Assembly (NCBI GenBank): GCA_949284575.1
Contig: CASDWO010000091.1
Span: forward strand, 1-43,601
Direction: 5' to 3'
From: an uncultured bacterium
GTDB lineage: Bacteria; Bacillota_I; Bacilli_A; RF39; UBA660
DNA: 43,601 nt
The notes under the pieces are model-generated. The model saw only the letters and a list, made by a program, of their open reading frames with translations. It searched no databases and had not been told where the DNA came from. Position numbers and translations under genes: made by a program. Shown piece by piece: positions 7,853 through 39,010 of the stretch (position 1 is its first letter; the number at the start of each line of letters is the position of its first letter).

Positions 7853-7885
7853 AAAAAAAGAATAAGAGTTAATTCACTCTTATTC
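7853..7885 (-). terminator. Strong terminator closing the T4SS/Tad operon
   Basis: A 10-bp perfect stem (GAATAAGAGT at 7860-7869 with ACTCTTATTC at 7876-7885) with a 6-base loop, followed on the minus strand by seven T residues. The stem overlaps the stop codon and last codons of virD4. It marks the 3' end of the ~25-kb operon. Confidence 0.85.
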
Positions 7886-10027: not shown

Positions 10028-10040
10028 AATCATCCTTCTT

Positions 10041-13221: not shown

Positions 13222-15012
13222 TTAAAATCCTCCACCACTACCAAATGTTTCTAATTCATCTTTAGTTACAACTACATTAATCCTCATACGTCTATTCCCA
13301 CAGACAAATAAAGCTTCACCTTGAGAATATCTCTTGATACTATCTTTTTCATTTTCATTTAAATCAATTAAAAGTGATAAATCTTCAACGGCTTGTTTTT
13401 TAAGACCCATTATTAAGTAATAAGATGAGTTATCAAAGATAGCTTTACCTTGAGTAATAACTCCTGGATCAGAAAAGTCACTAGGTTGTTGAGTAATAAC
13501 AATAGTACCAGTATTATACTTTCTAGCACGTCTTTGAACTTGCGCTAAGAAATCAGCACCTTGTTCGTTATTATTACTTAAAAGAACATGAGCTTCATCT
13601 ACCATTAGAATAGTATTTACATCAACATCAAGACATAATCCCCAAGCATATTTTAAGATATTAAAGAATAAAGCATTACGGATATTAGTATCGGAATTCA
13701 TAAATTCTTTTATGTTAAATACTAAGAAATCGCTATCACTAGTAATAGTAGTTTTACCATCAAAATAGAATTTTAACTCTCTAGTCAAAGGTCTTATTTT
13801 TAATTCTAGACGTTGAATAATATCTTTTTCTCTAGTTTGTTCTGTTATTGATAATAGTCTTCCTTTAACAGTAGCATAAACATCCGAAAATGTTGGATAA
13901 TCTGCAGAAGTAAAATTAGTAAAGTCAGTATTAAAGTCAATACCAAAACGTTTATAAGTATCTTGAACAATCTCACTAAACATATTTAAAACATCTTCTT
14001 CAATTGATGGATCATAGTATTTCATAAATGCTCTTAAAGATTGTAAGGTTCTAGTTAAGACAGTATATCCTAAACCTTGACTTATCTCCTCTTCATCAGC
14101 ATCAATAATGACTTCTAGAGGGTTAATAAGACCAAATTCACCACCTTTACCAATATCGATGGTATCTCCTCCAAACATTTTCGTCATTTCTTCAAGTTCA
14201 TTTTCAGGGTCAATTGCTACTATTTGACAACCATTTCTAATATGGGATCTAAGTACTAATTTAGCAGCAGTTGATTTACCAGAACCTGAAGTACCAAGAA
14301 TGATCATATTGGCATTATTTCTGTTACTTTCTTTTCTAACTTGATATAGGAATTGATTAAAGAGAATAACTCCTCCTGAAAAATCAACTCCAAGTAATAC
14401 AGAAAGTCCAGGGTCTTTAATACTATCAAAGATAAAAGGATACATTGCAGCGATTGTAGGAGAAGGAATAGGAGTACCTATTCTTTCTTCTATATCCTGT
14501 TTAGGGAATATAGGTAAAATGCTCTTTAAGACTTTCTCTTGTTCAAAACGAAGAGAAATAGCACGTAATTCCATTGCATCTAAATAGTTTTTAACATTAA
14601 CTTTTTTTAGTTCCAAGTCTTCTTTAGTATCAGCATTGATCATAATATGCATTTGAAAATCGAAGATACGTGATTGACTTGAAGCAAGCATAGATACAAA
14701 GTATTCAAGACTTTCAGCATCTTGTCTTATTCTCTCTTTAGCAGTTTGATCTTTTTCTTGACGATATTTTTCTCTTAAATCTGCAACTTGTCTATTAATC
14801 ATTTTAGACATAGTGCTAAAAGGAACAGGAATATGTTTAATAACTATTTTAATACCACTCATTGATGTTAGGGTTGATAAGTAACCTGGAGAAATATATC
14901 GTGGATAAGAAACAACTGATAAAATAGTAGCATATTTATCACTAATAAAGAAATCACTAGGATAAAATTGTAAACCTTTAGGTGCTAATTGACTTTTAAT
15001 ACTTATACTCAT
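13222..15012 (-). CDS. virB4: VirB4 ATPase, C-terminal and catalytic part
   Basis: 596 residues corresponding to most of VirB4/TrsE, the energising ATPase of type IV secretion. Residues 1-230 form the central domain that precedes the motor. Walker A is GTSGSGKS at 240-247, and Walker B is ILMVDEAHVLL in the last third, followed by the ITQQPSDF segment typical of the family. The protein lacks the usual N-terminal ~180 residues, which are supplied by the upstream ORF ending at 15009. The two genes share an ATGA overlap, so ribosomes finishing the first can start the second. Because the break falls at a domain boundary and the junction is a clean coupled overlap, I read it as a split gene rather than a sequencing error. 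Confidence 0.93.
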   Translation of the reverse strand: MSISIKSQLAPKGLQFYPSDFFISDKYATILSVVSYPRYISPGYLSTLTSMSGIKIVIKHIPVPFSTMSKMINRQVADLREKYRQEKDQTAKERIRQDAESLEYFVSMLASSQSRIFDFQMHIMINADTKEDLELKKVNVKNYLDAMELRAISLRFEQEKVLKSILPIFPKQDIEERIGTPIPSPTIAAMYPFIFDSIKDPGLSVLLGVDFSGGVILFNQFLYQVRKESNRNNANMIILGTSGSGKSTAAKLVLRSHIRNGCQIVAIDPENELEEMTKMFGGDTIDIGKGGEFGLINPLEVIIDADEEEISQGLGYTVLTRTLQSLRAFMKYYDPSIEEDVLNMFSEIVQDTYKRFGIDFNTDFTNFTSADYPTFSDVYATVKGRLLSITEQTREKDIIQRLELKIRPLTRELKFYFDGKTTITSDSDFLVFNIKEFMNSDTNIRNALFFNILKYAWGLCLDVDVNTILMVDEAHVLLSNNNEQGADFLAQVQRRARKYNTGTIVITQQPSDFSDPGVITQGKAIFDNSSYYLIMGLKKQAVEDLSLLIDLNENEKDSIKRYSQGEALFVCGNRRMRINVVVTKDELETFGSGGGF

Positions 15013-15566
15013 ACTGGCATCACCGTCCCAAAATCAGTAGAAACTCCTCCGTTTAAGAAGTTTTCCATTATTACTCTAAGATCATCATTACTAACTTGTG
15101 AAGCATTAAGTCCACAACTAGCAAGACCATTAATAAGTAATCTAATTCTTTTTTGTAGTACATCTTCTTTAGCATCTTTAAAGAGAATAAAATACTCTGT
15201 ATCAACGATATTATTAGTAGTAAAGCTATTACCTTTATCAATATCTTGTAGTATTATTTTTCTAATTGCCGGAGAAGTTGTTTCATTATAAAGAAGTTGT
15301 AACTGTGACATATAAACAGAAATATCTACAGGTCTATCAGCAACGACAAGCCAAAACTCAAAGTCTATCATATTATAGAAGTTTTTAAGACTAATAAGAA
15401 TATTATCTTGAGCTTGTTGATCAAGGATAAAGATATTCCTTGGAGCGATTTTAACTCCTGTTACTTTTTGTCTATCACTACAGATAATCATTCCATTTTG
15501 GATTCCTGTTATAGGTAACCAATCTTCAGTATACTGACTATTTATTTTCTTGGCCATCTTGAACAC
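15009..15566 (-). CDS. VirB4 N-terminal domain as a separate protein
   Basis: A protein of about 182-185 residues that matches the N-terminal, non-ATPase domain of Gram-positive VirB4/TrsE proteins (the WLPITGIQNGMI opening, then the VTGVKI strand and the DFEFWLVVADRPVD segment). It ends at 15009 in a TGA that overlaps the ATG of the catalytic VirB4 gene. The 5' end overlaps the PrgI-like gene by about 29 bases. The start is either GTG 15566 or ATG 15557; the ATG gives the more usual MAKK opening. Together with the next gene it would make up one functional VirB4 at the inner face of the membrane. Confidence 0.85.
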   Translation of the reverse strand: MFKMAKKINSQYTEDWLPITGIQNGMIICSDRQKVTGVKIAPRNIFILDQQAQDNILISLKNFYNMIDFEFWLVVADRPVDISVYMSQLQLLYNETTSPAIRKIILQDIDKGNSFTTNNIVDTEYFILFKDAKEDVLQKRIRLLINGLASCGLNASQVSNDDLRVIMENFLNGGVSTDFGTVMPV

Positions 15567-15852
15567 ACCAGCCTTTCCATATATATTTCTGTCTACTAGT
15601 TAAGAAAGTATAACATTCAATAATAATTGTTAAAATATTATGATAATTAGGAATAGGAATAACAAGAAAAGCACAGAACAAACCAGGTGTAACAACTAAA
15701 ATAACTTGCCAAGTATAACTCATAGATAAACTCATCAAAAGTATCAATGACATTAGTACTCCAGTTCCTAATAAAATCAAATCAAATGGTTTAAAAATAC
15801 CAAGTATCAACGTTCCCCTTTTTGTATTAGCAGGTATTAAATAATTATCCAC
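15538..15852 (-). CDS. PrgI/TcpE family protein (VirB3-like)
   Basis: 104 residues with the PrgI-family layout: a short polar N-terminus, two adjacent transmembrane helices (about 24-43 and 49-68), and a charged C-terminus. PrgI/TcpE proteins are the Gram-positive counterparts of VirB3 and sit in the membrane next to VirB4, and the gene is immediately upstream of the virB4 pair as expected. The start is a GTG at 15852 with AGGAG about 10 bases upstream. The end overlaps the next ORF by 29 bases. Confidence 0.88.
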   Translation of the reverse strand: MDNYLIPANTKRGTLILGIFKPFDLILLGTGVLMSLILLMSLSMSYTWQVILVVTPGLFCAFLVIPIPNYHNILTIIIECYTFLTSRQKYIWKGWCVQDGQENK

Positions 15853-15876: not shown

Positions 15877-17937
15877 TTAATGATGCCGACCACCTGGAGG
15901 AGGTGCACCAACATGTCTTGCAGCAGCTCTATATCTAGAACTCTTACGACTAGCATTAATACTACGTTTTTCATTTATAGCAATACCAGCTGTACCTTTA
16001 GTTCCCTTATAGTCATAACCATCTACATTCATTTGAGCAGTTTTAGCAGCATATATATATTCTTCGACAGTACCAGCAAGTTTTTTATCATAATTTGGAT
16101 CACCAGAGGATAAACCTGCTTGCCATTTACCATATTCAATAACTGAATCTTCAAAGAAATCATTCATAACGTTTGGATCAAGAGTATCAAGATCAAAACT
16201 TTTTGTTATTGTATTTCCAGCATAATCTAAACCTGTTGCTGTTACTGTTGTTTCTCCACGGGCTCTAGCATTATTAACCATATTTTCAAAATTTGTATAA
16301 TTAAGTTTAATATAATCATTATCACCCGGACCAAAACTAAGTTTACCAGTAATTGTTTTTGATTTCCTTGCTTGATCTTCCATCATCTTTTTGTTTGCTG
16401 TAGCTTTATTTTGAAGTTCATCATAAACTTTAAGTAAAGTTTCATCATGAGAACCTGGAGCTTGACCAGTAGCAATAGCAGAAGCACCAGCATAGGCACG
16501 TCTTAATAAAGAAGCTCCCTCAGCTCTTGTAGCATTTCTTCTTTGCATGGCTGAAAATACAGCACCTGCTTGTTTTTTATCTGCATGCATTAATGCTCCA
16601 GCTCCTGCTAAAGCACCTCCACCAACACCAGCAAATGCTGATAGAGCACCCCTTAGTCTTGCCTGACGTGAACTACCACCATCTTCTAACACTTCATCTC
16701 TAGTTGCTCTATAGTTAGTTGCAGCAGATCCAGCTAGACCACCTATTAAAGCAGCTCCACCTAACATAGTACCAATTCCTCCAAAAAGACTACCATCTCC
16801 GCCTTTAATTCCAAACATATCTTTAAAGAATTTAGGTGCTTGTTTCATGAATACTAAAATACCAATAATTATAAAGATTGTCGATAAGCCACTTGTAAAC
16901 CAATTAGTACTATTTTGCCATATATCAGCACCACCTTGACTAATTTCTAGAATAACATAAATACCAAAATAAATAACAATAAGTCTTATAAATAAATCAA
17001 GATAAGTAGATGTTAAACTCTTAACCCAATTTCCAAAAGCACCGTTTTTTTCTTGACCAGGGACAATATAAGAAATAATTGGAATAGGAGCAATCAATCT
17101 AAGTACAGCTAATTTTATTGCTCTAACAGCAACATCAATTGTAAAGCCTAAAATAATAATAACCATAATAATAGATGTAACTAAACCACCTAATATTGTG
17201 TAATCATATGCATAGTTACCTGAACAACTCTCGTTAATGTTAGTGGTTATAGATTCAAAAGCATTATTAGATTGCATATATCCAGTAGAGTCTATAACAT
17301 CAGGGCAAGCAAGTGCTGCTTCAAGATCATCTTGTGATGCTATATCATCAGGATCAATATCAGGATTAAGAGCAGGAGTTATAAAGGATTCAGCAATAGT
17401 TGTAGATAACATTTCGCCAACTGAACCTATACTGTTAAGTCCAAGTCCTTCATCTTCATTCAAAGTGTCAATATTGGAAGCAAGAACTAATTTACCTAAA
17501 ATATTATCTTCAACTACGCTTTCTTGGAATTGATAAAGGAAACCAAATAAAATACCATTGCTTTGAATTTTTTCATTTAATGGATTATCATCTGCAACAT
17601 TAGCAGGTATTTGAATAGGTGCAATTAAAGTAAGAAGAACAAGAACAACTGCTATTCTCATTACTAAATTACCGGCACCTTTGTTTTTATCTTTAAAAGT
17701 ATCGGGATTAACAATTATTTGAAGAACAGCTAAAGCTAATTTAAATACCATAAAGACGCCAAGAATCAATTGAACTCTTGAATAAAAGCTATTTATCGTA
17801 TCACCTTGTAAAATATTTGCATTAGCAACAGTGAAAAAAATGTCATAAACTCCACTAAGTAAATGATATCCTAAAGTGTCTATAGTTACAAACAAACTTC
17901 TAATCAAACCAGAAAATATTCCTGTTTCACCGTTCAT
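15877..17937 (-). CDS. VirB6/TrbL-like polytopic channel protein
   Basis: 686 residues with at least six membrane helices: about 55-75 and 91-111, then several between about 245 and 385. A loop of about 130 residues separates the second and third helices and would lie outside. The C-terminal ~290 residues start with a Gly/Ala-rich stretch and continue as a charged cytoplasmic tail ending in Pro/Gly/His. This is the layout of the VirB6/TrbL/TrsL component that forms the inner-membrane pore of type IV secretion. It has its own predicted promoter (17973-18001) although it lies inside the operon, and is followed 24 bases later by the PrgI gene. Confidence 0.85.
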   Translation of the reverse strand: MNGETGIFSGLIRSLFVTIDTLGYHLLSGVYDIFFTVANANILQGDTINSFYSRVQLILGVFMVFKLALAVLQIIVNPDTFKDKNKGAGNLVMRIAVVLVLLTLIAPIQIPANVADDNPLNEKIQSNGILFGFLYQFQESVVEDNILGKLVLASNIDTLNEDEGLGLNSIGSVGEMLSTTIAESFITPALNPDIDPDDIASQDDLEAALACPDVIDSTGYMQSNNAFESITTNINESCSGNYAYDYTILGGLVTSIIMVIIILGFTIDVAVRAIKLAVLRLIAPIPIISYIVPGQEKNGAFGNWVKSLTSTYLDLFIRLIVIYFGIYVILEISQGGADIWQNSTNWFTSGLSTIFIIIGILVFMKQAPKFFKDMFGIKGGDGSLFGGIGTMLGGAALIGGLAGSAATNYRATRDEVLEDGGSSRQARLRGALSAFAGVGGGALAGAGALMHADKKQAGAVFSAMQRRNATRAEGASLLRRAYAGASAIATGQAPGSHDETLLKVYDELQNKATANKKMMEDQARKSKTITGKLSFGPGDNDYIKLNYTNFENMVNNARARGETTVTATGLDYAGNTITKSFDLDTLDPNVMNDFFEDSVIEYGKWQAGLSSGDPNYDKKLAGTVEEYIYAAKTAQMNVDGYDYKGTKGTAGIAINEKRSINASRKSSRYRAAARHVGAPPPGGRHH

Positions 17938-18023: not shown

Positions 18024-19154
18024 TTAACTAATTGGCATACAAATACTATCGCTAATAAAGCTTAGTAATACTTGAACTAAAGTTGGAATTAAGAATAATG
18101 CTAAAGCAGCAATTAATCTAATAATAAGTTTAGATTGTGCTTCTTTCATAGCTTTATCATCACTGGAAGTAATTGCTTTAATAAAATCAATAGCACTAAG
18201 TATTACTACTAAAATTGGTCCTATTACTTTTATATAATTTAGTATAGTTTGTAATAACCAACCAACAGAGCCAGGATCATCAGTAAAAATAGTCTCACAT
18301 CTAATATCCCCAGTACCTATTTCTACTCCATCAATTTGATCCCAAGAATCGTTACCATCATAATCAGAGGATGCGTTATTTCCATCATCTGGTAAAACTG
18401 TTTGAATTGTTAAAGTGTCACCATAAGAAGGATCCCCTGCTAAATGAAAAGCAGCTTCATCACACTGATTACTCCAATAAACTTCATAATCCTCTTCTCT
18501 TACTTGAAATGTATAATCGCCAACTCGACTAACTTCATTATATCTAGCTGTGGTAGAAGTACCACCTACTGTAATAGTATACTCTTTTACACCATTTTGC
18601 TCTTTAGGAGTAAATGTAATATCAACATCACCAAAATCTAATCTAGAATTTTTTGTACAATAAGTAACAGATGGTCTAGATGTACTAGAACTTGAGCCAC
18701 CCGTTATTTCAGGAGTTATAACATCACTACCTGAGCCTTGAGGAACATTAGCTCCCCCATTTAAATGAAACTCTAAAACTGGATTAGTATAAATAAATTG
18801 AATAGGAGGACAGTTTTTTCTTTCTTCATAAGCTTGATAAAATCTACCGTTTTTATCAAACATTTTAGAATAACTTAAACGAGTGCCCGATCCATCTAAA
18901 ACTGCTCCAGAACTTGGCGTAACATTTATCTCATTACCAAAAGAATCATGGCCTTTAAATTTTCTTTTACCAGTACTACCATCATCATAAATTGTAACAG
19001 TTAATTGTAAGTCACTAATGCTATTTTGTAAAAATAATTTTTCTACATCAATATCATAATTACAAACCCCAAGTGATTCTTTAGCAGATGTATCACTTGG
19101 CATTAGTAAAATAACAAAAATAAATACTACACTTAATATTTTTAACCGCTTCAT
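18024..19154 (-). CDS. VirB2-like membrane module with large ectodomain
   Basis: The start is ATG 19154 (MKRLKILS...), preceded by GGAGAA 4-8 bases upstream and followed by a signal peptide (cleavage likely near SDTSA-KE); the in-frame ATG at 19208 has no such site. After about 290 extracellular residues rich in Thr, Ser, Gly and six or more Cys, the last ~80 residues form two membrane helices joined by a basic loop, SSDDKAMKEAQSKLI. That loop is nearly the same as in the 120-residue protein encoded at 19246-19608, so the two are paralogues in this module. Two helices with a short polar cytoplasmic loop is the VirB2/TrbC pilin topology. I infer a modified pilin, perhaps tip or base, but the ectodomain is unrecognised. 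Confidence 0.8.
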   Translation of the reverse strand: MKRLKILSVVFIFVILLMPSDTSAKESLGVCNYDIDVEKLFLQNSISDLQLTVTIYDDGSTGKRKFKGHDSFGNEINVTPSSGAVLDGSGTRLSYSKMFDKNGRFYQAYEERKNCPPIQFIYTNPVLEFHLNGGANVPQGSGSDVITPEITGGSSSSTSRPSVTYCTKNSRLDFGDVDITFTPKEQNGVKEYTITVGGTSTTARYNEVSRVGDYTFQVREEDYEVYWSNQCDEAAFHLAGDPSYGDTLTIQTVLPDDGNNASSDYDGNDSWDQIDGVEIGTGDIRCETIFTDDPGSVGWLLQTILNYIKVIGPILVVILSAIDFIKAITSSDDKAMKEAQSKLIIRLIAALALFLIPTLVQVLLSFISDSICMPIS

Positions 19155-19190
19155 AACATTCTCCAATCTATATAAATTAATTTTATAATA

Positions 19191-19225
19191 AAAAGAAAAA
19201 AATAGCAATAATGAATAATGCTATT
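19191..19225 (-). terminator. Intrinsic terminator after the small VirB2-like gene
   Basis: AATAGCA (19201-19207) pairs with TGCTATT (19219-19225); on the minus strand the stem is followed by a T-rich run (complement of the A-rich 19191-19200). It lies just past the stop at 19246 and ahead of the larger VirB2-like gene, so the small pilin candidate can be transcribed as a short message. Confidence 0.7.
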
Positions 19226-19245
19226 ATTTATTTTCTAAATATTAA

Positions 19246-19608
19246 CTAGTCTATACTCCGCCAACAGTCACTCCAATTGACTAGACCTGGTGCTGTTTCT
19301 TCATCTACAAGGCTACCTACCATAGAGAATACTAAACTAACAAGGGTTACAATAAAGAATACAGCTATCGCATAGATACATCTCTTAATTAATTTAGATT
19401 GGGCTTCTTTAACTGCTTTATCATCACTAGAAATAACTGCTTTTCCTAAATCTAGAGTACCTAATACAATTAAAATAATTGGAATACCTATTTGTAAAAT
19501 AGGAAAAACACCATTTTTAATGATTCTAACAATAAATCCAAAACCTTCACAACCATCATCAAGATTAACTTCTGTTAATAATTGAAAAAAATTACTTATA
19601 TTTAACAT
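19246..19608 (-). CDS. Small VirB2-like pilin subunit (T4SS pilin type)
   Basis: 120 residues with an N-terminal amphipathic stretch, a first membrane helix at about 33-56, the polar loop SSDDKAVKEAQSKLIKR (60-76), and a second helix at about 77-98, then a short Trp/Asp tail. This matches the size and topology of VirB2/TrbC-type pilins of Gram-positive type IV systems. It carries its own consensus promoter (TTGACA/TATTAT) and its own terminator inside the larger operon, which fits a structural subunit needed in high copy. The next gene encodes a paralogue with a large ectodomain. The ribosome binding site is GAAGGAGAG before the ATG. Confidence 0.8.
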   Translation of the reverse strand: MLNISNFFQLLTEVNLDDGCEGFGFIVRIIKNGVFPILQIGIPIILIVLGTLDLGKAVISSDDKAVKEAQSKLIKRCIYAIAVFFIVTLVSLVFSMVGSLVDEETAPGLVNWSDCWRSID

Positions 19609-19663: not shown

Positions 19664-20644
19664 TTATCTTTTAAATAATCCAAAAATCTTTCCACCATCT
19701 TCTTTATCTTTAGGTTTATTGATAAGTCCTATCTTTGATAGAAAATCACTAAGTACATGATTTTTAACTCTATCATTTAAAGGTGGTAAGTTATAAAAAA
19801 CTTTTGTTTTTCCTTCATATTCAAAATCCATAATATCACTATTAGATAAAAGACTTTGATTTAATATTATTTTCTTTCCTTTTAATTCATCAAAAATTCT
19901 TCTATTTCTTCGCATTAATTTATTTAATTTAATACTTGAAGGTTCTATTAAATATAATACATCATTACATATACCTTCATTTTCAGAATTATTTAAATCT
20001 ATTAAAATAATAGAAACTTCTTTATATTTTACAATCTCAGCCATTAAATCTTTATCATTTACGGATACCATATTATGACTATTAAAGTAAACAAAATCGA
20101 ATTTATTAACTTCAATTGCAACAACACTCATTCCATATGTCTGCTCTAATTCTTTTTTTAACATATAGATTAATGTTGTACTACCAGCATGATCTGTTAC
20201 ATTTTTAATTCCTATTATTCTAGAACCACCAATAACTTTCTCACTAATAGTACTAGATAGATCATTAAGCTGTTGAATATGGGCTACATCCTTATATGTA
20301 TTAGGATGATCTAAAAAATATTTTATACCATCAACATTAGTAGTAAAGTTATATATTCCCATCGAGATAATTTTTGATAAATAACCACTAGATGTAAAAG
20401 ATTCGTTATTAGGCAATAAAAGAATGATTTTATCAGCATCAAGACCAATAGAGATTTTTTGAATATTAGTAATATTATCATAATCTTTAATAGCCGTGAT
20501 ATCTAAAATCATTCTTGCATAAAAGAAGTTTTCAAACATATCGACAATCTCATCAGCGGTATGTACACCATCAACGCTTTTAATAACATCAATATCTAAA
20601 CTAGACAACATCGCTTTTGCTTCATTGGCAATAATTACGTTCAT
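19664..20644 (-). CDS. TadZ/CpaE-like protein with degenerate P-loop
   Basis: 326 residues with TadZ/CpaE layout: an N-terminal receiver-like alpha/beta domain (about 1-120) and a C-terminal MinD/ParA-like domain (about 140-310). The segment where a deviant Walker A (KGGxGKS/T) should be reads GIKNVTDHAGSTT (145-157), lacking the signature and catalytic lysines, so ATP binding or hydrolysis is doubtful. TadZ proteins place the Tad pilus machine at the pole or a focus; an inactive ATPase could still act as a localisation hub. It follows the TadE-like pilin gene in the operon and the last residues are Lys-rich and cytoplasmic. Confidence 0.7.
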   Translation of the reverse strand: MNVIIANEAKAMLSSLDIDVIKSVDGVHTADEIVDMFENFFYARMILDITAIKDYDNITNIQKISIGLDADKIILLLPNNESFTSSGYLSKIISMGIYNFTTNVDGIKYFLDHPNTYKDVAHIQQLNDLSSTISEKVIGGSRIIGIKNVTDHAGSTTLIYMLKKELEQTYGMSVVAIEVNKFDFVYFNSHNMVSVNDKDLMAEIVKYKEVSIILIDLNNSENEGICNDVLYLIEPSSIKLNKLMRRNRRIFDELKGKKIILNQSLLSNSDIMDFEYEGKTKVFYNLPPLNDRVKNHVLSDFLSKIGLINKPKDKEDGGKIFGLFKR

Positions 20645-20662: not shown

Positions 20663-21106
20663 TTAATAGATTGTTCTTGTTTCTCCTCTTACTTGTAGAA
20701 ACTCTCCTAAGCCAACAATATTATTTATAACAGGAATATCAATGCTAACAAATGATACTACTGTATAGTAATGTCCATTAATATCACTATCGCCTCCTGC
20801 CATAGTAACATCATGAGTAATAACACACCATCCATTCCAACCAGGACATTCACCACCATTTTTACCTATAAAATCTGTCATCATCCTATTTGGAACATTA
20901 TAATTAACTTGTTCAATATAAGAATTTATCTTATCTTGAGCAGCATCATTTTCATATCCTTCATATTCCTCAATAATATCAACAATGTGATTTTTAACTT
21001 GAAATGCTCTCGCATAATTTACAGAATAAGCCATATATCCATTTATTAATAATACAAATGCTAATATTATTTGTAATGTAAATACTTGTCCAATTGCATC
21101 TCTCAT
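20663..21106 (-). CDS. TadE-like minor pilin
   Basis: 147 residues. A short N-terminus (MRDAIG) leads straight into a hydrophobic helix (about 8-28), followed by a helical then beta-rich ectodomain with two Cys, the usual plan of TadE/TadF pseudopilins. The Gly just before the hydrophobic stretch could be a prepilin peptidase site, as in the neighbouring 53-residue pilin. It starts 30 bases after that pilin's stop behind AAGGATGTGAT. Confidence 0.75.
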   Translation of the reverse strand: MRDAIGQVFTLQIILAFVLLINGYMAYSVNYARAFQVKNHIVDIIEEYEGYENDAAQDKINSYIEQVNYNVPNRMMTDFIGKNGGECPGWNGWCVITHDVTMAGGDSDINGHYYTVVSFVSIDIPVINNIVGLGEFLQVRGETRTIY

Positions 21107-21135: not shown

Positions 21136-21297
21136 TTATTTTATAGTATCTGTTTGTGAAGTTACATTATCTTCCCAAGTATCTTCGATTGCAGGTTGTA
21201 TTACATTTGGCCAAAAGATTGCAAAAAATGCTGCAATAACACCAATTAAGACAATTGTTACTACAGTCATATTTAACTCTCCTGTCGCTTCTTTCAT
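21136..21297 (-). CDS. Flp-like major pilin candidate (53 residues)
   Basis: A very short gene with a full AAAGGAGAG ribosome binding site 8 bases before the ATG at 21297 and a TAA at 21136-21138. The product starts MKEATGELNM, then a hydrophobic helix to about residue 29 (FFAIFW), and ends in a short acidic, Thr-rich tail. The short charged leader ending in Gly, a Glu next to it, and then a single helix is the layout of Flp/TadE-class prepilins cut by a TadV-type peptidase after Gly6. Its position, between tadC and the TadE-like gene, and its own promoter inside an inverted repeat support a major pilin role. No peptidase gene is in the window. Assignment to the Flp family rests on architecture, not on sequence identity. 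Confidence 0.75.
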   Translation of the reverse strand: MKEATGELNMTVVTIVLIGVIAAFFAIFWPNVIQPAIEDTWEDNVTSQTDTIK

Positions 21298-21320
21298 GTA
21301 AGCATCTCTCCTTTCTTATC

Positions 21321-21358
21321 TTACAAAATAATTATAACAAATAAATAATATTTTGTAA
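21321..21358. repeat. Perfect inverted repeat spanning the pilin promoter
   Basis: TTACAAAATA (21321-21330) and TATTTTGTAA (21349-21358) are exact reverse complements separated by 18 bases. The arms cover the -35 region and the predicted transcription start of the 53-residue pilin gene, and the -10 lies between them. There is no T run, so it is not a usual terminator; an operator dyad or an mRNA-stabilising hairpin for upstream transcripts would fit. Confidence 0.65.
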
Positions 21359-21359
21359 C
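21331..21359 (-). promoter_or_regulatory. Promoter of the Flp-like pilin gene
   Basis: Minus strand GTTACA (21354-21359, 4 of 6 to consensus), 17-base spacer, TATAAT (21331-21336) preceded by TGT: an extended -10 with perfect hexamer. Predicted start is about 27 bases before the ATG. Confidence 0.65.
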
Positions 21360-21375
21360 TATATTTTTCATTATT

Positions 21376-22155
21376 TTATCCAATCATCGTCAACATAGAA
21401 GAAAGAATTACTATCATAACACTAACACCTGTTACTACAAGCATGATCATAGTTTGGTTACCCATATAATCTAATCTTTCTTTATATTTTGTTTCTCTTG
21501 CTTTCGCTTGTAAGTTAGAAACTGTTCTTGAAAACATTAAGAGTCTTTCTTGTTTTTTCTCTTGACCACCTATACCTAAACGATATAAAAGTCTCATCAT
21601 ACGCATTGAATCTCTAACTGGATAAGTATTAGCAAAATCCATATAAGGATTTATACTAGAATCTCCTGAATTAATCTTTTCAATTAATTCTCTAAGTCCA
21701 GGTTTAAAAATATCAGGAGCATCATTAATACTTTTACCTATTGCTACAGGAACAGTATAATGTTGGATTAATATTTCTAAACTCTTTAAATAGTATGGCA
21801 ACATTATATCGATTTGATGTAAATGTTTTTTATAATGTGATTTTAACTGTGAATATGGCATCTTAAAAACTCCAACAGATACTAATACTGCTAATATAAT
21901 ATTTATAAGACTTACATCATTTATAAAAACAAACATAAAAATAAAGAAAACTAGAATAGCATTAGTAAATCTTTTTTGAAATAATACATCAGGAATTGCT
22001 GTATCTCCATATTTAGCATAAACTAAGAAGTCATAATCATCCTCTCTTAAAATCTCAAAATACTTTTTGTTATCTGCGATAAATTTATTTTTATCAATAG
22101 TTCTATTATAAACTAAGATAAATAGTATAATTATTGCAACGAAAATTATTTCCAT
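21376..22155 (-). CDS. tadC: TadC-like pilus platform protein
   Basis: 259 residues of the GspF/T2SSF fold. One N-terminal helix (about 1-15), a pair of helices at about 65-100, a cytoplasmic helical domain, and a C-terminal membrane helix pair ending at residue 259. It is paired with the TadB-like protein encoded 2 bases upstream. TadB and TadC form the inner-membrane platform on which TadA polymerises Flp pilin. The segment with RMMRLLYRLGIGGQEKK is the usual cytoplasmic contact region in this family. Confidence 0.85.
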   Translation of the reverse strand: MEIIFVAIIILFILVYNRTIDKNKFIADNKKYFEILREDDYDFLVYAKYGDTAIPDVLFQKRFTNAILVFFIFMFVFINDVSLINIILAVLVSVGVFKMPYSQLKSHYKKHLHQIDIMLPYYLKSLEILIQHYTVPVAIGKSINDAPDIFKPGLRELIEKINSGDSSINPYMDFANTYPVRDSMRMMRLLYRLGIGGQEKKQERLLMFSRTVSNLQAKARETKYKERLDYMGNQTMIMLVVTGVSVMIVILSSMLTMIG

Positions 22156-22157
22156 CT

Positions 22158-23051
22158 CTACTCAACCCCTACATTCTCATTATAATATTTTTCTCCTTTT
22201 AAAAGGAAGTAACTATTAAAAACAATAATTCCATGTAAGATAATTTGTACATATATTTGCTTGATCAATTCTATATAGCTTTCATTTCCCAACATATATT
22301 GTACAAGCATAACTAATAGGAACAACATAATACCATAACGTAAGAATTTCTTATGAAATGTTGCTCTATCCATTCTATCACGATAGACACTTTCAACAAG
22401 GGTATCAATATCTAGCTGCATATTTTCTAAACTTTCTCCTGTATCTTTCGCTCCTTCTTTAGTTATTTGTAAGAATAATTGATGCATGTTTTTAACGATA
22501 TAGTATGGATATTTATCACTCATGAAGTTTAATGCTCCATCAATTGAACCATCTTGATAAGCCATATCTATCATTCTATTAACATCAGAAAGTACAGGAT
22601 CATCTAAAATTCCTGAGTCTCTAACTCCCTCTAAGGATTTAACAAAACTTTGGGTTGTTGCAAATTCCATAATAACGTTAGTTGTATATACTTGAATTTG
22701 CTCAAAGATAAATTCACTATATACTCTTTTACATCTTAAAAATGATAGATAAGGTATAAAGGAAATAGCTATTATAATATAAATAATTGAAACAACTAAA
22801 TTATAAAAGTATAGATATGTTACAATACCAGCAAATCCTCCCATTATTAAGACTTGAATTAAGTACTGTCTTGCTGTATATTCTTGACCTAGTTCTTTAG
22901 TTTTCTCTCTTACTACTTTATATGAATAAGGAGCAAATCTATCATAAACAGCTTGTACTTGTTCTGTTATAAATTTTGAAACATTCTGTCCTTTATAATT
23001 TCTATATAAAATTATTCCAAAGCCAATTATAAGTAATAAAAATAGAACCAT
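22158..23051 (-). CDS. tadB: TadB-like pilus platform protein
   Basis: 297 residues of the GspF/T2SSF fold: an N-terminal helix (about 1-14), two helices at about 66-105, a helical cytoplasmic domain (about 110-230) and C-terminal helices at about 236-285. It follows tadA by 14 bases with a strong AAAGGAGG ribosome binding site and is followed almost directly by tadC, the conserved tadA-tadB-tadC order. Confidence 0.88.
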   Translation of the reverse strand: MVLFLLLIIGFGIILYRNYKGQNVSKFITEQVQAVYDRFAPYSYKVVREKTKELGQEYTARQYLIQVLIMGGFAGIVTYLYFYNLVVSIIYIIIAISFIPYLSFLRCKRVYSEFIFEQIQVYTTNVIMEFATTQSFVKSLEGVRDSGILDDPVLSDVNRMIDMAYQDGSIDGALNFMSDKYPYYIVKNMHQLFLQITKEGAKDTGESLENMQLDIDTLVESVYRDRMDRATFHKKFLRYGIMLFLLVMLVQYMLGNESYIELIKQIYVQIILHGIIVFNSYFLLKGEKYYNENVGVE

Positions 23052-23065
23052 AACTTCCTCCTTTC

Positions 23066-24310
23066 TTAATTATTATCAAAAGGAATTTCTATCGATGGTA
23101 AGGAATTATTATTATTAATATCAAAATTAGGGCTGATAATCTCACTAACACTCTCTTCAATTATGGGATCTTCAGTAGCAGTGTTAACATTTGGAGTATT
23201 AAGAGTATTAGTATTATTAACTTCATCTATTTCTTTAGAGATATTATCCATTGAATCACCCTTAGTAAAGAGATTATCAATAAAGATATTTTGATTTTCA
23301 AGGTACTCTTTTAAATGGGGACTAGGCATATTTTGAACTGGAGCTTTACCAAATGTCTTTTGGTAAAGGATATGACTCTTTGGTTTATTATCATCATCAA
23401 CATAAAATTCTACAACTTCATCTACTTCACGATGAAATTTTCCATATTCTTTACTATAATATGCTTTAATATGGACACCTAATTGAATATAACGATAGAT
23501 TGTATTTAAAAATTGATCTACATCTATATCACTTTCAAGTAAAGAGTACATACGGTAAGGTATAGCACTAGCTTTATCGGCATGGATTGTAGACAAAATA
23601 TTATGCCCAGATGAAATTGAGTTACGAACAGCAGTAACAGCTTCGGCACTACGTACTTCTGATAGTAATATCCATTTAGGATTTTGACGCATACAAGTAA
23701 CTAATACTTCAGTGTAACTTGCAACGTTATTAGTTTTCATAGCAACAATATCACGATGTGGAAAGATTTTATCAAGATGAAGCTCTAAGGTATCTTCTAT
23801 TGTTATAATTTTTTCATTTTCTTTTGTATGACTAGCTAAATATTTAACAAATTCTGTTTTTCCAGAACCAGTTTCTCCACTTACTATGATATTACAATGT
23901 CCTTCAACGCATTTCATTAAGATATCATGGATATTAGCAGTAAAATAGTCTTCACTAATTAACTTTTCTTTATTTAACCTAATTTTAGCTGGAGTCTTAC
24001 GAATAACTACGGCAATACCATTAGTAGCAATAGATTGATGAACAAAGTTAAGACGTAGTTCTGTAGATTCTGCGTCAAGAAAAGGTTTAGCATTATTAAA
24101 GGTTGTTCCCATAACATTAGAGCATTGAAAAGCTAGTTTTTCGACAAAGGCATCGTTTAAACCAGCTATTTCTACTCTTTTAGATCCTTCTGTTAATGAT
24201 CTAATCCAAATCTGTCCATGATTACAGTAAGATATATCAGTAATATCATCATTATCAATTAAGGGTTTAAATAAGCCGAAATCTAACTTATCAAAAATGG
24301 AATCAGTCAT
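23066..24310 (-). CDS. tadA: TadA/CpaF-type pilus assembly ATPase
   Basis: 414 residues of the secretion ATPase family. Walker A GETGSGKT at 145-152; Walker B ILLSEVR (214-220, Glu218); the His box HNILSTIHAD at 236-245. The N-terminal domain (about 10-110) contains the family's ELRLNFVHQSIA region. The core ends near residue 350, and the last ~65 residues are a disordered Asn/Thr/Glu tail not needed for the fold. It powers pilin polymerisation on the TadB/TadC platform. It follows cpaB by 16 bases. Confidence 0.93.
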   Translation of the reverse strand: MTDSIFDKLDFGLFKPLIDNDDITDISYCNHGQIWIRSLTEGSKRVEIAGLNDAFVEKLAFQCSNVMGTTFNNAKPFLDAESTELRLNFVHQSIATNGIAVVIRKTPAKIRLNKEKLISEDYFTANIHDILMKCVEGHCNIIVSGETGSGKTEFVKYLASHTKENEKIITIEDTLELHLDKIFPHRDIVAMKTNNVASYTEVLVTCMRQNPKWILLSEVRSAEAVTAVRNSISSGHNILSTIHADKASAIPYRMYSLLESDIDVDQFLNTIYRYIQLGVHIKAYYSKEYGKFHREVDEVVEFYVDDDNKPKSHILYQKTFGKAPVQNMPSPHLKEYLENQNIFIDNLFTKGDSMDNISKEIDEVNNTNTLNTPNVNTATEDPIIEESVSEIISPNFDINNNNSLPSIEIPFDNN

Positions 24311-24326
24311 TTAATTCACCACCCTT

Positions 24327-25154
24327 TTATTGATTTTGAGTAGCAGCAATATCTTGTTCAGTCATCGCAGTTACATTATTAATAAAGTTTTGTAAATCTG
24401 TGCTTGATAATGTTACATCTCCTGGTTCATCTTCTAGAGATTCAGCAGTAGGAACAGGAATAATCTCTGATTCATAAGCTCTTAAGAAACTAGCTTTACG
24501 AAGTAAGATATGATATTCTTCAGGTACAGCAAAGATAATTTGCGCAGGTTCTGTTTTCTCTTCAACATTAGCAAAAACATTATTACCATTGCTATCATAT
24601 ACTGCTAAAACTTTAACATTTTCAAGTAATTTTCCAACCATAATTCTATCATCAGTAACTGTACCAGTTTGATTATCAGATACATTTTGAACTTTTAAAT
24701 ATATATCAATATAATTACCTGGATAGATTGAATTACTATAAGTACTAGCCATATCAACATCTAAGTTATATAAAACATATCCCTTTGGATAATCTAGGAT
24801 AATACTTCCTGGTAGTTGATCTGCAGATACAACTGTTCTTTTATAGAATAAACTACCTTCTGGTATTATACTATCACCACTAGCATACATGTCAATAACA
24901 TCAGCACTGTTAGTAATAATATTATTATTAACCATAGATTGTGGTATTTCCATTGTTCCAATCATATCTTCAGTTATTTGTGTTCTTGGATTTATATCTT
25001 CAAGAGCATAAGGAACAGTAACTGGAGTAATGGCTTGATTGATTCGCATATTATATCCTACATAAAGAATAATAATTGCAATGAGTACACCTACAACTGT
25101 TACTGTATTCTTATTTGTAAAAAACTTTTTAATTCCAACAACTAAATTATTCAT
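24327..25154 (-). CDS. cpaB: CpaB/RcpC-like SAF-domain protein
   Basis: 275 residues with an N-terminal membrane helix (about 16-34), a SAF domain (about 40-110, with DINPRTQITEDMIGTMEIP), and a second beta-rich domain to about 230. CpaB/RcpC is the periplasmic or wall-side partner of the Tad pilus that in Gram-negatives contacts the secretin. A wall-side role here is inferred, since a Gram-positive cell has no secretin and none is encoded. The C-terminus is acidic and helical. It lies directly before tadA, the usual place. Confidence 0.88.
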   Translation of the reverse strand: MNNLVVGIKKFFTNKNTVTVVGVLIAIIILYVGYNMRINQAITPVTVPYALEDINPRTQITEDMIGTMEIPQSMVNNNIITNSADVIDMYASGDSIIPEGSLFYKRTVVSADQLPGSIILDYPKGYVLYNLDVDMASTYSNSIYPGNYIDIYLKVQNVSDNQTGTVTDDRIMVGKLLENVKVLAVYDSNGNNVFANVEEKTEPAQIIFAVPEEYHILLRKASFLRAYESEIIPVPTAESLEDEPGDVTLSSTDLQNFINNVTAMTEQDIAATQNQ

Positions 25155-25172: not shown

Positions 25173-25634
25173 TTATTTATCAACATCACTGTAATCTAAT
25201 TTACCACTACGTGTTTCTTTTGTAACATAAGTATTAGAATAGTAATTTGACTCTAAAATAGCATCTACTCTATTAGAAAAACTAACATTTTCTCCTCCTA
25301 CAGAAGTTAGTGTTTCTGAATTAACTAAAATGCTAACTTTAGGAGGTGTTTCATTAATATCATAAAATTTAATGTCATATGTTCTACTATTAGAAACATT
25401 TTGGGAAAAACGTCTAACAAAGCTTTCGACAAATTTTTCCTTATCAATTCTTAATAGACCGCTTAAGCGGTAATAACCAACATCAACTGCATCAGTCATT
25501 GCCGCTTCGGTTGTTTCTCTTAAAAGATAATAATCTAACTCATTACCGGTCTGATAATTTGATACTATATTAACAACCCCGAAAGTAATAATAGCTAATA
25601 AAATTATACCAACGACCGTCATAGCTTTACTCAT
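25173..25634 (-). CDS. TadE/TadF-like minor pilin
   Basis: 153 residues with the hydrophobic helix right at the N-terminus (about 4-25) after MSKAM, then a helical stretch with charged residues and a beta-rich C-terminal domain. This fits minor pseudopilins of Tad systems, although no family signature is strong. It lies between the large Cys-rich surface protein and cpaB. The ribosome binding site AAAGGAG lies about 12 bases upstream and overlaps the previous stop region. Confidence 0.65.
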   Translation of the reverse strand: MSKAMTVVGIILLAIITFGVVNIVSNYQTGNELDYYLLRETTEAAMTDAVDVGYYRLSGLLRIDKEKFVESFVRRFSQNVSNSRTYDIKFYDINETPPKVSILVNSETLTSVGGENVSFSNRVDAILESNYYSNTYVTKETRSGKLDYSDVDK

Positions 25635-25637
25635 ATA

Positions 25638-28475
25638 TTAATTTACTCCTTTCAAGATTGCACTTTCTGCTTGATATTCACGATAACAACTTGTTGAAGT
25701 ATCTATAGTGTTAATACACTGTCCATTAGTTTCATTGTTACAGCCAATTACACCGCTTTTTACTAATTCTGTTCCTTTATTTAGAACACGATGTAAAAGA
25801 TAGCTACGATATACAGTGATACCTGCTGTTTTACTATTACCAGCAACTAAAACTTCTGAACTATTATCATTAGATGGTTCTGTATAACTATCGAACTGTT
25901 TATTGTAGTTTCTAACTTTCTTCATAGTTTCAGGTGTCAAGACGATATGATAATCAACATAAGAATCATCTTCATAAATACTATCGCCTAATCTTTCAAT
26001 GGTGTTCTTTAAGGTTACTGGTTGGATTAGATAATCTTCGTTCTCTAAGTTAGTTGCTTCACAAGACCAGTTAAAGCCAGGTTCTCTTGTTGCTGAGTCT
26101 GCTACTAATGTTGCAGATTTATTATTACGTAGTGTTTCTACTTCATTAATTAAGTTTGAAGCTACGATGTTTTTGCTATTATCGCTTGTATTAGAAACGT
26201 TAGTATCAGGGAATAAATTATCTAGTGTTATTGGTCTAAATTTATAATCTGTTACAATAGTTTCATCAGGCGGATTTTTTTCATCAGTAGGTGGTGTCTC
26301 TACACTATCACAGTTTGGATAATCTGGATCTGTTGGTGGACAACTAGCATCACAATTTGGATAATCTGGATCACTAGGATCACAATCATCATTTGGTTTA
26401 TCTAGAGCGTAGAAACATTCTACATCGAAATTCCAACCAAAGTAACCATAGTTATCGATTGATCCTTTAATATTCATATCTAATGATGAAGTAATTTCTT
26501 GTTTTTCACTATCTGTTAGAACGCTACTATCGCCATTTTGATTTACTTTCCAATAATACCATGCTGTATTAACAGGAAGAGAATTTAATTTTGTACAGAA
26601 TTCATTACCTGCATATGTATAGAAATCTTCATAACCTTCTTTAATTGAATGGGTTGTTTGACCAGTCTTATTATTAATCCAAATACCTGGGAATGTTATG
26701 ATGTTGTGATAGTCCCAACTTCCATTTTGACTATTACCGGTTTCACATAGCCCATCTACTAGAGTAACCATATCTGGAAATTTACCTGTTACTTTATCAC
26801 TATTCATTTTTTGATTTGAAGTAAAGGTTTCACGCCAGTCACTCTTATCTTTATCATTTTTATTATCATTACTATCTAAGTTATCTACTGTTATTGTATA
26901 AGTTGCTGTATTGTTTGAGCAAGTAGATCCTTTACCTTCACAGGCAGCTTTAGCAGCTTCATATTCTTGCATAGCTTTTTCATATTCTTCTGTTGCTTGA
27001 CTAGGTGTTAAAACAGTATTGCTACCACAGTTATTAATCCAATTACAAGTATCAGTACACCAGTTTTCATAACCTTGATACATACATCTAGTTAAGAAAC
27101 CATTAGTACCTTCACAGTATTGTTTACGACCATCTTGATCAACATATAAACCATGTACTTCTTGAACTGTTAATTTTGTTTTCTCAAAACTCTTGAAATA
27201 GAACTGTGCAATAGAACTAGAACATCCTGAATTACTTGGAACCCAACGATTACCTACATATTTACCACCTGGGTCTCTTTGGTGTTGTTCATATAAAGCT
27301 CTAATTTGATTATCATCATATGGTGATACTGTTGCTGGAGTTAAACATCCATTAGCTAATTTAGAAGCTTGTGATGAAGCACTACCACCCATAGCATTAA
27401 AGGTTAAAATATCAGTTTTAGCTTCAAATGCTGTTTGAGTATTTACTTTATCTGTATATGTTTCGTTTTCTTCATATACTTTAGTATAACATTTATCAAT
27501 ACAAGATTGAGTATATTCACCACCATCACATTCATTTACGCAAGCATCAAACTCTTCTGTTGGTCCTCCTTTATCACTTTCAAAACCATTACTAGATACA
27601 CAGTGAGCTGTTGGAATACAAACAGTTGGTAATGAAGGCATAGGTGCTGTATATCTATTTTCACAAGTAACTTTAGATTTGATTTCGATTAAATATTCGA
27701 AACACATACCAGCTTGAGTTGCTACAGGGTCACTAAAGTTTACTTCAACATCTTCACGACAAGTTGTTGTACAGTTATCAGATGTTGTTGATTCAACATG
27801 ACTAAATTTTCGCATAGTCTCATAATTACTATTACTAAATGCATCACAAGTTAATTTTCCAGTATTTTTAACATTATCTACATTAGTAGCAGGATCTTTA
27901 TCAATAGTTGGAGCATTTGCTTGTGATTCATATAATGATTCAGCTCTTGATATCCACCCACTTACTTCTTCATATGAGTATTGTACAGAAGTTTCTTCTT
28001 CAAAACAGTAAGAAACAGCTTCTTTCATTGTACTATTCTTAGACCATTTATTACGATAATTTACACAAAGAGCATTATCATATAATTGGTTTCTACTTGA
28101 TGCATTCATATAAACAGTATTATTACCAACTTCTTTATTAGCATCACAAGTACCATCAGATTCTGCTAAATAGAAATGTACTTCTAGACGCTCTTCTAAC
28201 TTATCTTCAGGTATTGTAATAGAGAAATTACCATTAGCATCGGCAGGATACTTTGTAGTATCAAAGTTTGTTGAATATAGAAGTCCTTTAGCTCCTGTAT
28301 AATTTACAACATTACCTGAAATACTATAGCCGATTTTATTGATATAGTTTTCTCTTGTGTAATCGGTCGAACATTCATTATTAGCTGCAGTAACACTAGA
28401 TGTATTTGTAAATATTACTAGTCCTACAGCTAAAAATATAACAATTATTGGAATGATTACTTTAAACTTCTTCAT
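25638..28475 (-). CDS. Large Cys-rich secreted surface protein
   Basis: The ATG at 28475 is chosen (MKKFK...) because AAGGTG lies 6 bases upstream; a GTG at 28484 lies inside that site. The ~945-residue product has a signal or anchor helix at about 5-28 (cleavage possible near VTAAN), and then about 910 extracellular residues with roughly 35 Cys, several as C-x3-C and C-x4-C clusters. A short coiled-coil-like segment and two tandem DPDYPNCD repeats near residue 700 are visible. There is no LPXTG-type signal at the C-terminus, and no known adhesin family is recognised. It overlaps the sortase gene by 14 bases, so the two are translationally coupled. I infer an adhesin or tip protein of the pilus or channel whose disulfides stabilise it outside the cell. 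Confidence 0.8.
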   Translation of the reverse strand: MKKFKVIIPIIVIFLAVGLVIFTNTSSVTAANNECSTDYTRENYINKIGYSISGNVVNYTGAKGLLYSTNFDTTKYPADANGNFSITIPEDKLEERLEVHFYLAESDGTCDANKEVGNNTVYMNASSRNQLYDNALCVNYRNKWSKNSTMKEAVSYCFEEETSVQYSYEEVSGWISRAESLYESQANAPTIDKDPATNVDNVKNTGKLTCDAFSNSNYETMRKFSHVESTTSDNCTTTCREDVEVNFSDPVATQAGMCFEYLIEIKSKVTCENRYTAPMPSLPTVCIPTAHCVSSNGFESDKGGPTEEFDACVNECDGGEYTQSCIDKCYTKVYEENETYTDKVNTQTAFEAKTDILTFNAMGGSASSQASKLANGCLTPATVSPYDDNQIRALYEQHQRDPGGKYVGNRWVPSNSGCSSSIAQFYFKSFEKTKLTVQEVHGLYVDQDGRKQYCEGTNGFLTRCMYQGYENWCTDTCNWINNCGSNTVLTPSQATEEYEKAMQEYEAAKAACEGKGSTCSNNTATYTITVDNLDSNDNKNDKDKSDWRETFTSNQKMNSDKVTGKFPDMVTLVDGLCETGNSQNGSWDYHNIITFPGIWINNKTGQTTHSIKEGYEDFYTYAGNEFCTKLNSLPVNTAWYYWKVNQNGDSSVLTDSEKQEITSSLDMNIKGSIDNYGYFGWNFDVECFYALDKPNDDCDPSDPDYPNCDASCPPTDPDYPNCDSVETPPTDEKNPPDETIVTDYKFRPITLDNLFPDTNVSNTSDNSKNIVASNLINEVETLRNNKSATLVADSATREPGFNWSCEATNLENEDYLIQPVTLKNTIERLGDSIYEDDSYVDYHIVLTPETMKKVRNYNKQFDSYTEPSNDNSSEVLVAGNSKTAGITVYRSYLLHRVLNKGTELVKSGVIGCNNETNGQCINTIDTSTSCYREYQAESAILKGVN
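26297..26392 (-). repeat. Tandem DPDYPNCD-encoding repeat
   Basis: Within the large Cys-rich protein gene, two near-identical copies of a stretch encoding DPDYPNCD lie a few dozen bases apart, separated by a Cys/Pro/Ser linker. The copies differ at few bases, so this is a recent internal duplication that could vary in copy number. Confidence 0.6.
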
Positions 28476-29244
28476 TCTCGTCACCTTCTTCCATCCTTTC
28501 TTTTATTACTTCATAATTTTCATTAGGTGTTATTTTAGCATATATTTTCTCTTCTTCTTTTCTTAACTCTCTAGCATCTACTCTAAAAGAGTAATTAGTA
28601 GAAGATCCATAAAACCTAGTACAGGTAAAGAGTGTCAAAAGTAAGTCATCTTCATTAACATCGGTATCGATATCATACATGCTTTCTTTTTTTACTCTTT
28701 TAATATAACTTTGTTGTTCTTTCTTACTATAAGTATCACTATAAGAAGAATTTTGATCATCATCTAGAAGAGCAACTCCATAAATACGATATAAAGAAGT
28801 CTTACCTTCACTATTTGTATATTCAATAAACTGATTTTCTTCAATAAAGGAAGGATAGATAAAGGACATTAGTTGTTCAAAACGACTCATCGTATCATCA
28901 CCGATAATAGGATTCCTTGAAACATTACGGATATTATGAGATATGAATGCTGGTCTATTACTTTTCTGATCAGGGAAAGAGTTAGTCCAAGCAAAGTCAT
29001 AATCTCCTTTAATCAAGTTAGTATCCTCATCAACAGTAATTAGAGCCATATCAATGTTAGTTCCTTCAACTCTAAGCCAGCCTCTAACATCATCACCAAA
29101 TTCTTTTGCTTTTGCAATATTACTACTTTCATCTTTCGTAGAAAACGTACTAACTTTAGTATGTAAATTACGATACCATAATGTAAGAGCAATAACAATC
29201 GCTAAAGTAATTAGTGCTATTATTACAAATAACTTCGTTTTCAT
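28462..29244 (-). CDS. Class B-like sortase
   Basis: 260 residues with an N-terminal membrane helix (about 5-23) and a sortase domain. Catalytic residues can be placed: His103 in AFISHNI, Cys208 in LLLTLFTCTR (TLxTC box), and Arg in YSFRVDARELR (R221 or R225). The long insertion before the Cys and the GWLRVEGTNIDMALI opening resemble SrtB. Sortases cleave a C-terminal sorting signal and join the protein to peptidoglycan or to another pilin. No partner in the window ends in LPXTG or NPQTN, so its substrate is not evident. It is coupled to the large Cys-rich protein gene by a 14-base overlap and follows the 605-residue surface protein by 15 bases. Confidence 0.9.
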   Translation of the reverse strand: MKTKLFVIIALITLAIVIALTLWYRNLHTKVSTFSTKDESSNIAKAKEFGDDVRGWLRVEGTNIDMALITVDEDTNLIKGDYDFAWTNSFPDQKSNRPAFISHNIRNVSRNPIIGDDTMSRFEQLMSFIYPSFIEENQFIEYTNSEGKTSLYRIYGVALLDDDQNSSYSDTYSKKEQQSYIKRVKKESMYDIDTDVNEDDLLLTLFTCTRFYGSSTNYSFRVDARELRKEEEKIYAKITPNENYEVIKERMEEGDENEEV

Positions 29245-38970: not shown

Positions 38971-39010
38971 AATCAAATCTCCTTTTCGTTTTAATCTTCT
39001 ATTTTGTTCA

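Follow-up and report, generated by a model that had tools for sequence, protein, structure and literature searches.

A conserved candidate prepilin gene with a predicted internal promoter in a chromosomal Tad-like and type IV secretion gene cluster of uncultured gut Bacilli

Introduction

The pilins of Flp/Tad (type IVc) systems are proteins of about 50 to 60 residues with a short leader ending in glycine and one long hydrophobic helix, and their genes sit among tadA/B/C/E genes. Flp pilins are recognized by the motif GXXXXEY (PMC10934763, PMC3244431), and the TadE motif is GXXXXEF (PMC10934763). Flp-like proteins of Gram-positive bacteria that lack the tyrosine at +6 have been described, and some Gram-positive tad-like loci were reported without a recognizable prepilin (PMC3244431). 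The archaeal Epd-type pili have short pilins and two platform genes adjoining the ATPase gene (PMC6668835). For type IV secretion systems (T4SSs), a review states that Gram-positive systems lack VirB11 homologs (PMC12857230); a paper on plasmid pLS20 states that they appear to lack pili, and the same paper names a pLS20 virB11 (PMC11730352).

Here, we describe a gene cluster in a 43,601-nucleotide stretch of DNA (the window) from Candidatus Onthousia (Bacilli), a genus of uncultured gut Bacilli, in which Tad-like and T4SS genes lie together. No paper describing the Onthousia Tad-T4SS locus was found in the literature searched. The genus was assigned from named relatives at 85 to 95% identity in the CpaF-like ATPase, and the relatives compared below are nearly all metagenome-assembled genomes.

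Results

A chromosomal cluster of Tad-like and T4SS genes

Synteny of the neighboring genes typA, tsf, and rpsB in relatives places the cluster on the chromosome. Its genes, in the direction of transcription, are as follows.

28462..29244, minus: class B sortase-like protein (TIGR03064, E 6e-13, below cut-off)
25173..25634, minus: DUF5411 protein (PF17424, E 3e-49; pLS20-type plasmid counterpart, HHalign E 2e-5)
24327..25154, minus: CpaB/RcpC-like protein (PF16976, E 3e-7)
23066..24310, minus: CpaF/TadA/VirB11 ATPase (PF00437, E 2e-28; phmmer matches to FlaI and CpaF structures)
22158..23051, minus: TadB-like platform protein, by position
21376..22155, minus: TadC-like platform protein (HHalign to the protein in the TadC position of pLS20-type plasmids, E 5e-7)
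21136..21297, minus: 53-residue candidate prepilin (leader MKEATG, one hydrophobic helix, variable C-terminus)
20663..21106, minus: TadE-like pseudopilin (leader MRDAIG; HHalign to the pLS20-type protein, E 3e-4)
19664..20644, minus: putative TadZ-like protein (position; degenerate P-loop-like stretch)
19246..19608, minus: small multi-helix protein, VirB2-like by position
18024..19208, minus: protein whose C-terminal domain resembles T4SS pilins (PF18895, E 0.0015, under the Pfam threshold)
15877..17937, minus: VirB6/TrbL-like protein (PF19597, E 6e-10; NF045848; HHalign to the pLS20-type protein, E 2e-8)
15538..15852, minus: putative PrgI/VirB3-like protein, by position and size
13222..15566, minus: VirB4, in two open reading frames (NF045975, E 7e-104)
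10828..13191, minus: SpoIID and C39-like peptidase protein, VirB1-like by position
7880..10033, minus: VirD4 coupling protein of the CD1115 family (NF045973, E 4e-91; PF02534)

The ATPase expected of a Tad system was identified by both Pfam and phmmer, and two membrane proteins stand where the platform pair would be expected. Neither gave a Pfam T2SSF match in the present family, and the TadB of pLS20-type plasmids matches T2SSF weakly (E 0.19). The identities of TadB and TadC are thus proposed from position rather than from T2SSF; TadC has in addition a single profile match, to a plasmid protein that is itself just as unproven. In the structural model of the TadE-like protein, a 47-residue helix at the N-terminus leads into a small domain, and fold comparison of this model gave no significant match; the protein sequence has no glutamate at +5 or phenylalanine at +6, so that the TadE motif is absent.

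VirB4, VirB6, and VirD4, the set expected of a conjugative T4SS, are all present. The Tad-like and T4SS modules are present or absent together: in the 14 genomes tested, a VirD4 ortholog (58 to 86% identity) was found in 10/10 genomes with the pilin locus and in 0/4 without tadC and the pilin gene, one of these four (G006) giving only distant partial VirD4 matches. No PF03432 relaxase was found in the genome and no relaxase was recognized in the window, and Mob_Pre relaxases occur on other contigs only; DNA transfer is therefore only one possibility, and protein secretion or contact with neighboring cells are other possible roles.

Several further features of the window were recorded. The two open reading frames of virB4 are joined by an ATGA overlap at 15009-15012, and a relative has virB4 divided in the same way (L106, near 9310). 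The stretch at 18024-19246 and its counterparts, between the small VirB2-like gene and virB6, vary strongly in length among members of the genus, and in several assemblies the sequence breaks off between tadC and this region. Two large surface-type proteins (29260-31077 and 35116-36981), with about 25 to 28% mutual similarity in cross-matches, flank typA, and a 948-residue Cys-rich secreted-type protein adjoins the sortase-like gene. The ribosomal proteins S2 (38035-38976) and L20 (39079-39675) have a nearly identical C-terminal SAP/Rho_N-like domain (Pfam SAP, E about 1e-8 in both).

Comparison with pLS20-type conjugative plasmids

The cluster was compared with the pLS20-type plasmids pNARUSE of Bacillus subtilis and a plasmid of Paraclostridium bifermentans. 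The plasmids share the order DUF5411-like, CpaF, TadB-like, TadC-like, TadE-like, and a tiny single-helix protein, followed by the T4SS genes. Homology was detected for CpaF (tblastn, E 8e-41 and 2e-46), VirD4, and VirB4, and by HHalign for TadC, TadE, DUF5411, and VirB6. Unlike the plasmids, the present cluster is chromosomal, has no recognized relaxase in the window, and adds CpaB and the sortase; its T4SS gene order also differs, and the tiny gene precedes the TadE-like gene here whereas it follows it in the plasmids.

In the place of the pilin, the plasmids carry a 47-residue single-helix protein in tandem copies (L103, 14400-14881; L104, 15196-15599), and in L103 a third similar, unlisted frame seems to lie just upstream. 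No sequence similarity was detectable between this protein and the pilin, and a direct search of the plasmids with the pilin gave no match. A relationship of the two as sequence homologs was accordingly rejected.

A small gene under purifying selection

An earlier reading of this DNA from its sequence only had described a gene for a 53-residue Flp-like pilin, and its statements about the open reading frame, the ribosome binding site, the extended -10 element, and the exact arms of an inverted repeat all hold. The gene starts with ATG, encodes 53 residues (translation MKEATGELNMTVVTIVLIGVIAAFFAIFWPNVIQPAIEDTWEDNVTSQTDTIK), is present in a single copy in its own genome, and is preceded by the following signal.

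21308..21314, minus: ribosome binding site AAAGGAG, 10 nt ahead of the pilin ATG

This site is kept in 26/26 pilin promoters of the genus. Conservation of the gene in relatives, which that reading had made a test of its claim, was found: homologs occur in 20/25 genus genomes, and the five without a match either also lack tadC (G002, G006, and G020) or have a contig edge near tadC (G005 and G019). In 80 loci retrieved by a search with the CpaF-like ATPase, the gene follows tadC and precedes the TadE-like gene in nearly all that reach past tadC. The exceptions are a few loci with intervening genes or tandem pilin copies (e.g., L100), one with short, apparently frameshifted copies (L064), and L093 and some others that show none. 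The tandem genes at L100 (10901-11430) and L089 (11086-11600) differ in their Cys-rich tails.

Single-base codon differences between pairs of the 26 genus pilin sequences were synonymous in 2,693 cases and nonsynonymous in 363; these are pairwise counts, not independent events. The pattern indicates that the frame is under strong purifying selection. In an alignment of 38 members, M1, K2, A4, G6, E7, and T11 are invariant; the N-terminus is almost invariant (MK[EA]A[TS]GE) and the C-terminus is variable, Cys-rich tails included, as expected for pilins. In the bacterial family of the window, a profile of these members matched 17/19 sampled genomes; outside that family it found no convincing match in a 392-genome sample of the phylum, so that restriction to one bacterial family is the best reading. 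With its conserved place beside tadC, selection, and near-invariant N-terminus, the 53-residue gene is real. Comparative evidence places the frame and its predicted promoter, not the inverted repeat, far beyond chance.

Leader, helix, and relation to known pilins

The leader of the predicted prepilin resembles a class III leader.

21280..21297, minus: leader codons MKEATG, predicted cut after Gly6

The leader of the TadE-like neighbors, M[RK]x[AS]xG, is of similar type. Their leaders and that of the pilin have the same length and end in an invariant glycine, which suggests that one processing enzyme serves both. Unlike Flp/Tad systems, the locus has no recognized prepilin peptidase gene. The only A24 prepilin peptidase gene of the genome belongs to a different operon, where it neighbors a PilC-like gene, and A24 peptidases occur in 13/14 relatives as well, some of them without the locus; processing of the pilin by this enzyme is therefore an assumption.

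The AlphaFold2 model of the 53-residue protein is one helix spanning residues 10 to 52 (mean pLDDT, 84). In size (about 50 to 65 residues in the Flp class), in its N-terminal hydrophobic helix, in its glycine-ending leader, and in its location with tadA (by Pfam), tadB (by position), and tadC (by position and HHalign) alongside, it resembles Flp pilins. The residues after Gly6 in the window, G|ELNMTV, contain neither glutamate at +5 nor tyrosine at +6; the +5 residue is threonine in 64/65 members. The Gram-positive Flp-like proteins described previously lack the tyrosine (PMC3244431), and the present pilin is without the glutamate as well. It also differs from Flp pilins in having no match to the Pfam Flp family and in its confinement to one bacterial family. 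Formal Flp membership therefore fails on the missing GXXXXEY motif, and the predicted anatomy is that of a Flp-like pilin; the description as Flp-like applies to architecture, not to the defining motif.

Other comparisons gave limited hints. Pfam archaeal Pilin_N resembles 8/38 members weakly (best E, 0.0022), a likeness to Epd-type pili that goes with the short pilin and the paired platform genes; unlike those pili, the present system belongs to a bacterial host and its locus is linked to a T4SS. A PDB profile search gave nothing significant (a geopilin chain at E 1.1 does not count as evidence), and fold comparison of the single helix gave no match. The lack of a significant match to any pilin family is what would be expected if the frame encoded a small membrane protein unrelated to pilins, such as an assembly factor. 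We regard this as very improbable, given the tight link to tadC and tadE, the leader shared in kind with the TadE-like protein, and the helix ending in a variable tail.

An internal promoter ahead of the candidate prepilin gene

The candidate prepilin gene is preceded by predicted promoter elements.

21354..21359, minus: -35 element GTTACA (start, 21359; spacer, 17 nt)
21331..21339, minus: extended -10 element TGTTATAAT, pattern TGNTATAAY

TGNTATAAY was found 15 to 85 nt upstream of the pilin gene in all 25 loci of the genus and in 25 of 38 other loci, and hardly ever upstream of other tad genes (tadC, 0/77; tadB, 0/74; tadA, 0/80; tadE, 1/62; tadZ, 0/60). All 26 distinct promoters of the genus have TTACAA, without variation, 19 nt ahead of the TG of the extended -10, the position of a -35 element. 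The comparative evidence for an internal promoter of the pilin gene is thus strong, and this predicted promoter is well supported. Within the genus, the extended -10 also precedes the sortase gene (10/25) and the DUF5411 gene (13/27), and the cluster thus has internal promoters besides that of the pilin gene.

The sequence-only reading had proposed that the gene is separately transcribed, and this stands in part. No terminator-like site was detected between 17900 and 31500, and the gap between the pilin gene and tadE is only 29 nt; read-through from tadC into the pilin gene, and on into tadE, is therefore likely, and the promoter would feed the downstream genes. An RNA element at the pilin leader was considered and rejected, as Rfam gave no match in the window and the predicted 5′ leader of the transcript folds no better than shuffled sequences.

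The inverted repeat around the promoter

Two exact 10-base arms, separated by an 18-nt loop, lie around the extended -10.

21349..21358, plus-strand sequence TATTTTGTAA: arm adjoining tadC and overlapping the -35 element (left arm)
21321..21330, plus-strand sequence TTACAAAATA: arm over the predicted transcription start (right arm)

An operator, at which a dimeric regulator bound to both arms would cover the -35 element and the transcription start, had been suggested from this arrangement and would be compatible with the pilin reading. Besides the exact arms, the operator would account for the 7-bp arms intact in 16/26 genus promoters and for the uniqueness of the combination, as TTACAAA-N17-25-TTTGTAA occurs once in the 1.48-Mb genome. 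A repeat with exactly such arms and loop occurs only here in the window, with 0.05 expected. However, the window (29% G+C) has 10 inverted repeats with perfect 10-bp arms and a loop of at most 30 nt, compared with 5.0 ± 3.1 in dinucleotide shuffles, so a 10-bp repeat is in itself not unusual.

The comparison among relatives also speaks against an operator. The right arm is altered in 8/26 and the left in 2/26 genus promoters with no compensating change, the inner arm bases are not kept, and the spacing of the arms varies by 1 nt. The repeat is absent outside the genus, where the extended -10 persists. The left arm with an extended -10 is found at the pilin gene and at 0 to 2 scattered sites per genus genome, which form no obvious regulon. 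We therefore rejected the operator as the leading explanation and consider it improbable; a dimeric regulator is not supported. The left arm is explained by the -35 element, and the repeat is best described as this element together with an initially transcribed region that is conserved in part, rather than as a proven operator. It is mostly an ordinary -35 plus coincidence, although a repeat unique in the genome could have a role.

Discussion

In a surface machine of hybrid Tad-T4SS type, the 53-residue protein is probably the prepilin of the main structural subunit. Its designation as the major pilin, made previously from the sequence, is likely rather than proven, and draws on its place beside tadC, its glycine-ending leader, its one long helix, and its own predicted promoter. 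Against this assignment stand the missing residues at +5 and +6, the lack of a Flp family match, the platform proteins without a T2SSF match, and the VirB2-like candidates encoded in the locus, one of which could be the fiber subunit. In a different arrangement, the main subunits would be the TadE-like or VirB2-like proteins, and the 53-residue protein would have a minor or pseudopilus role in the T4SS (as a piston or platform partner), with no long fiber formed. The two VirB2-like proteins, the TadE-like protein with the same kind of leader, and the missing glutamate would fit such an arrangement. We nevertheless hold it to be rather unlikely, since the pilin gene is the only one of the tad genes with a dedicated conserved promoter, which fits a subunit made in high copy, and the pilin is the shortest and most N-terminally invariant of the leader-bearing proteins of the cluster.

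For the main prepilin, we infer cleavage, filament formation, the transcription start, and the biological role along the following lines. The A24 peptidase would cut the prepilin after Gly6, and CpaF with the TadB/TadC-like platform would polymerize the 47-residue mature subunit into a thin fiber. The internal promoter would supply the excess of subunit needed, with read-through also feeding tadE and the T4SS genes, and the fiber would bring about attachment to the cell that the T4SS targets, or contact with it.

The finding provides a candidate fiber subunit for a Tad-like module tied to a monoderm T4SS in uncultured gut Bacilli. It is tentatively suggested that the present chromosomal family and the pLS20-type plasmids belong to one class of monoderm T4SSs with a built-in Tad-like pilus motor and its own tiny pilin lacking the glutamate at +5. 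If true, a class with a Tad-like motor would run contrary to the statements that Gram-positive T4SSs lack VirB11 homologs (PMC12857230) and appear to lack pili (PMC11730352), and the tandem 47-residue gene of the tractable B. subtilis plasmid pLS20 offers a testable counterpart. The result may also bear on the Gram-positive tad-like loci without a recognizable prepilin, as short genes whose leaders lack this glutamate can escape both annotation and motif rules.
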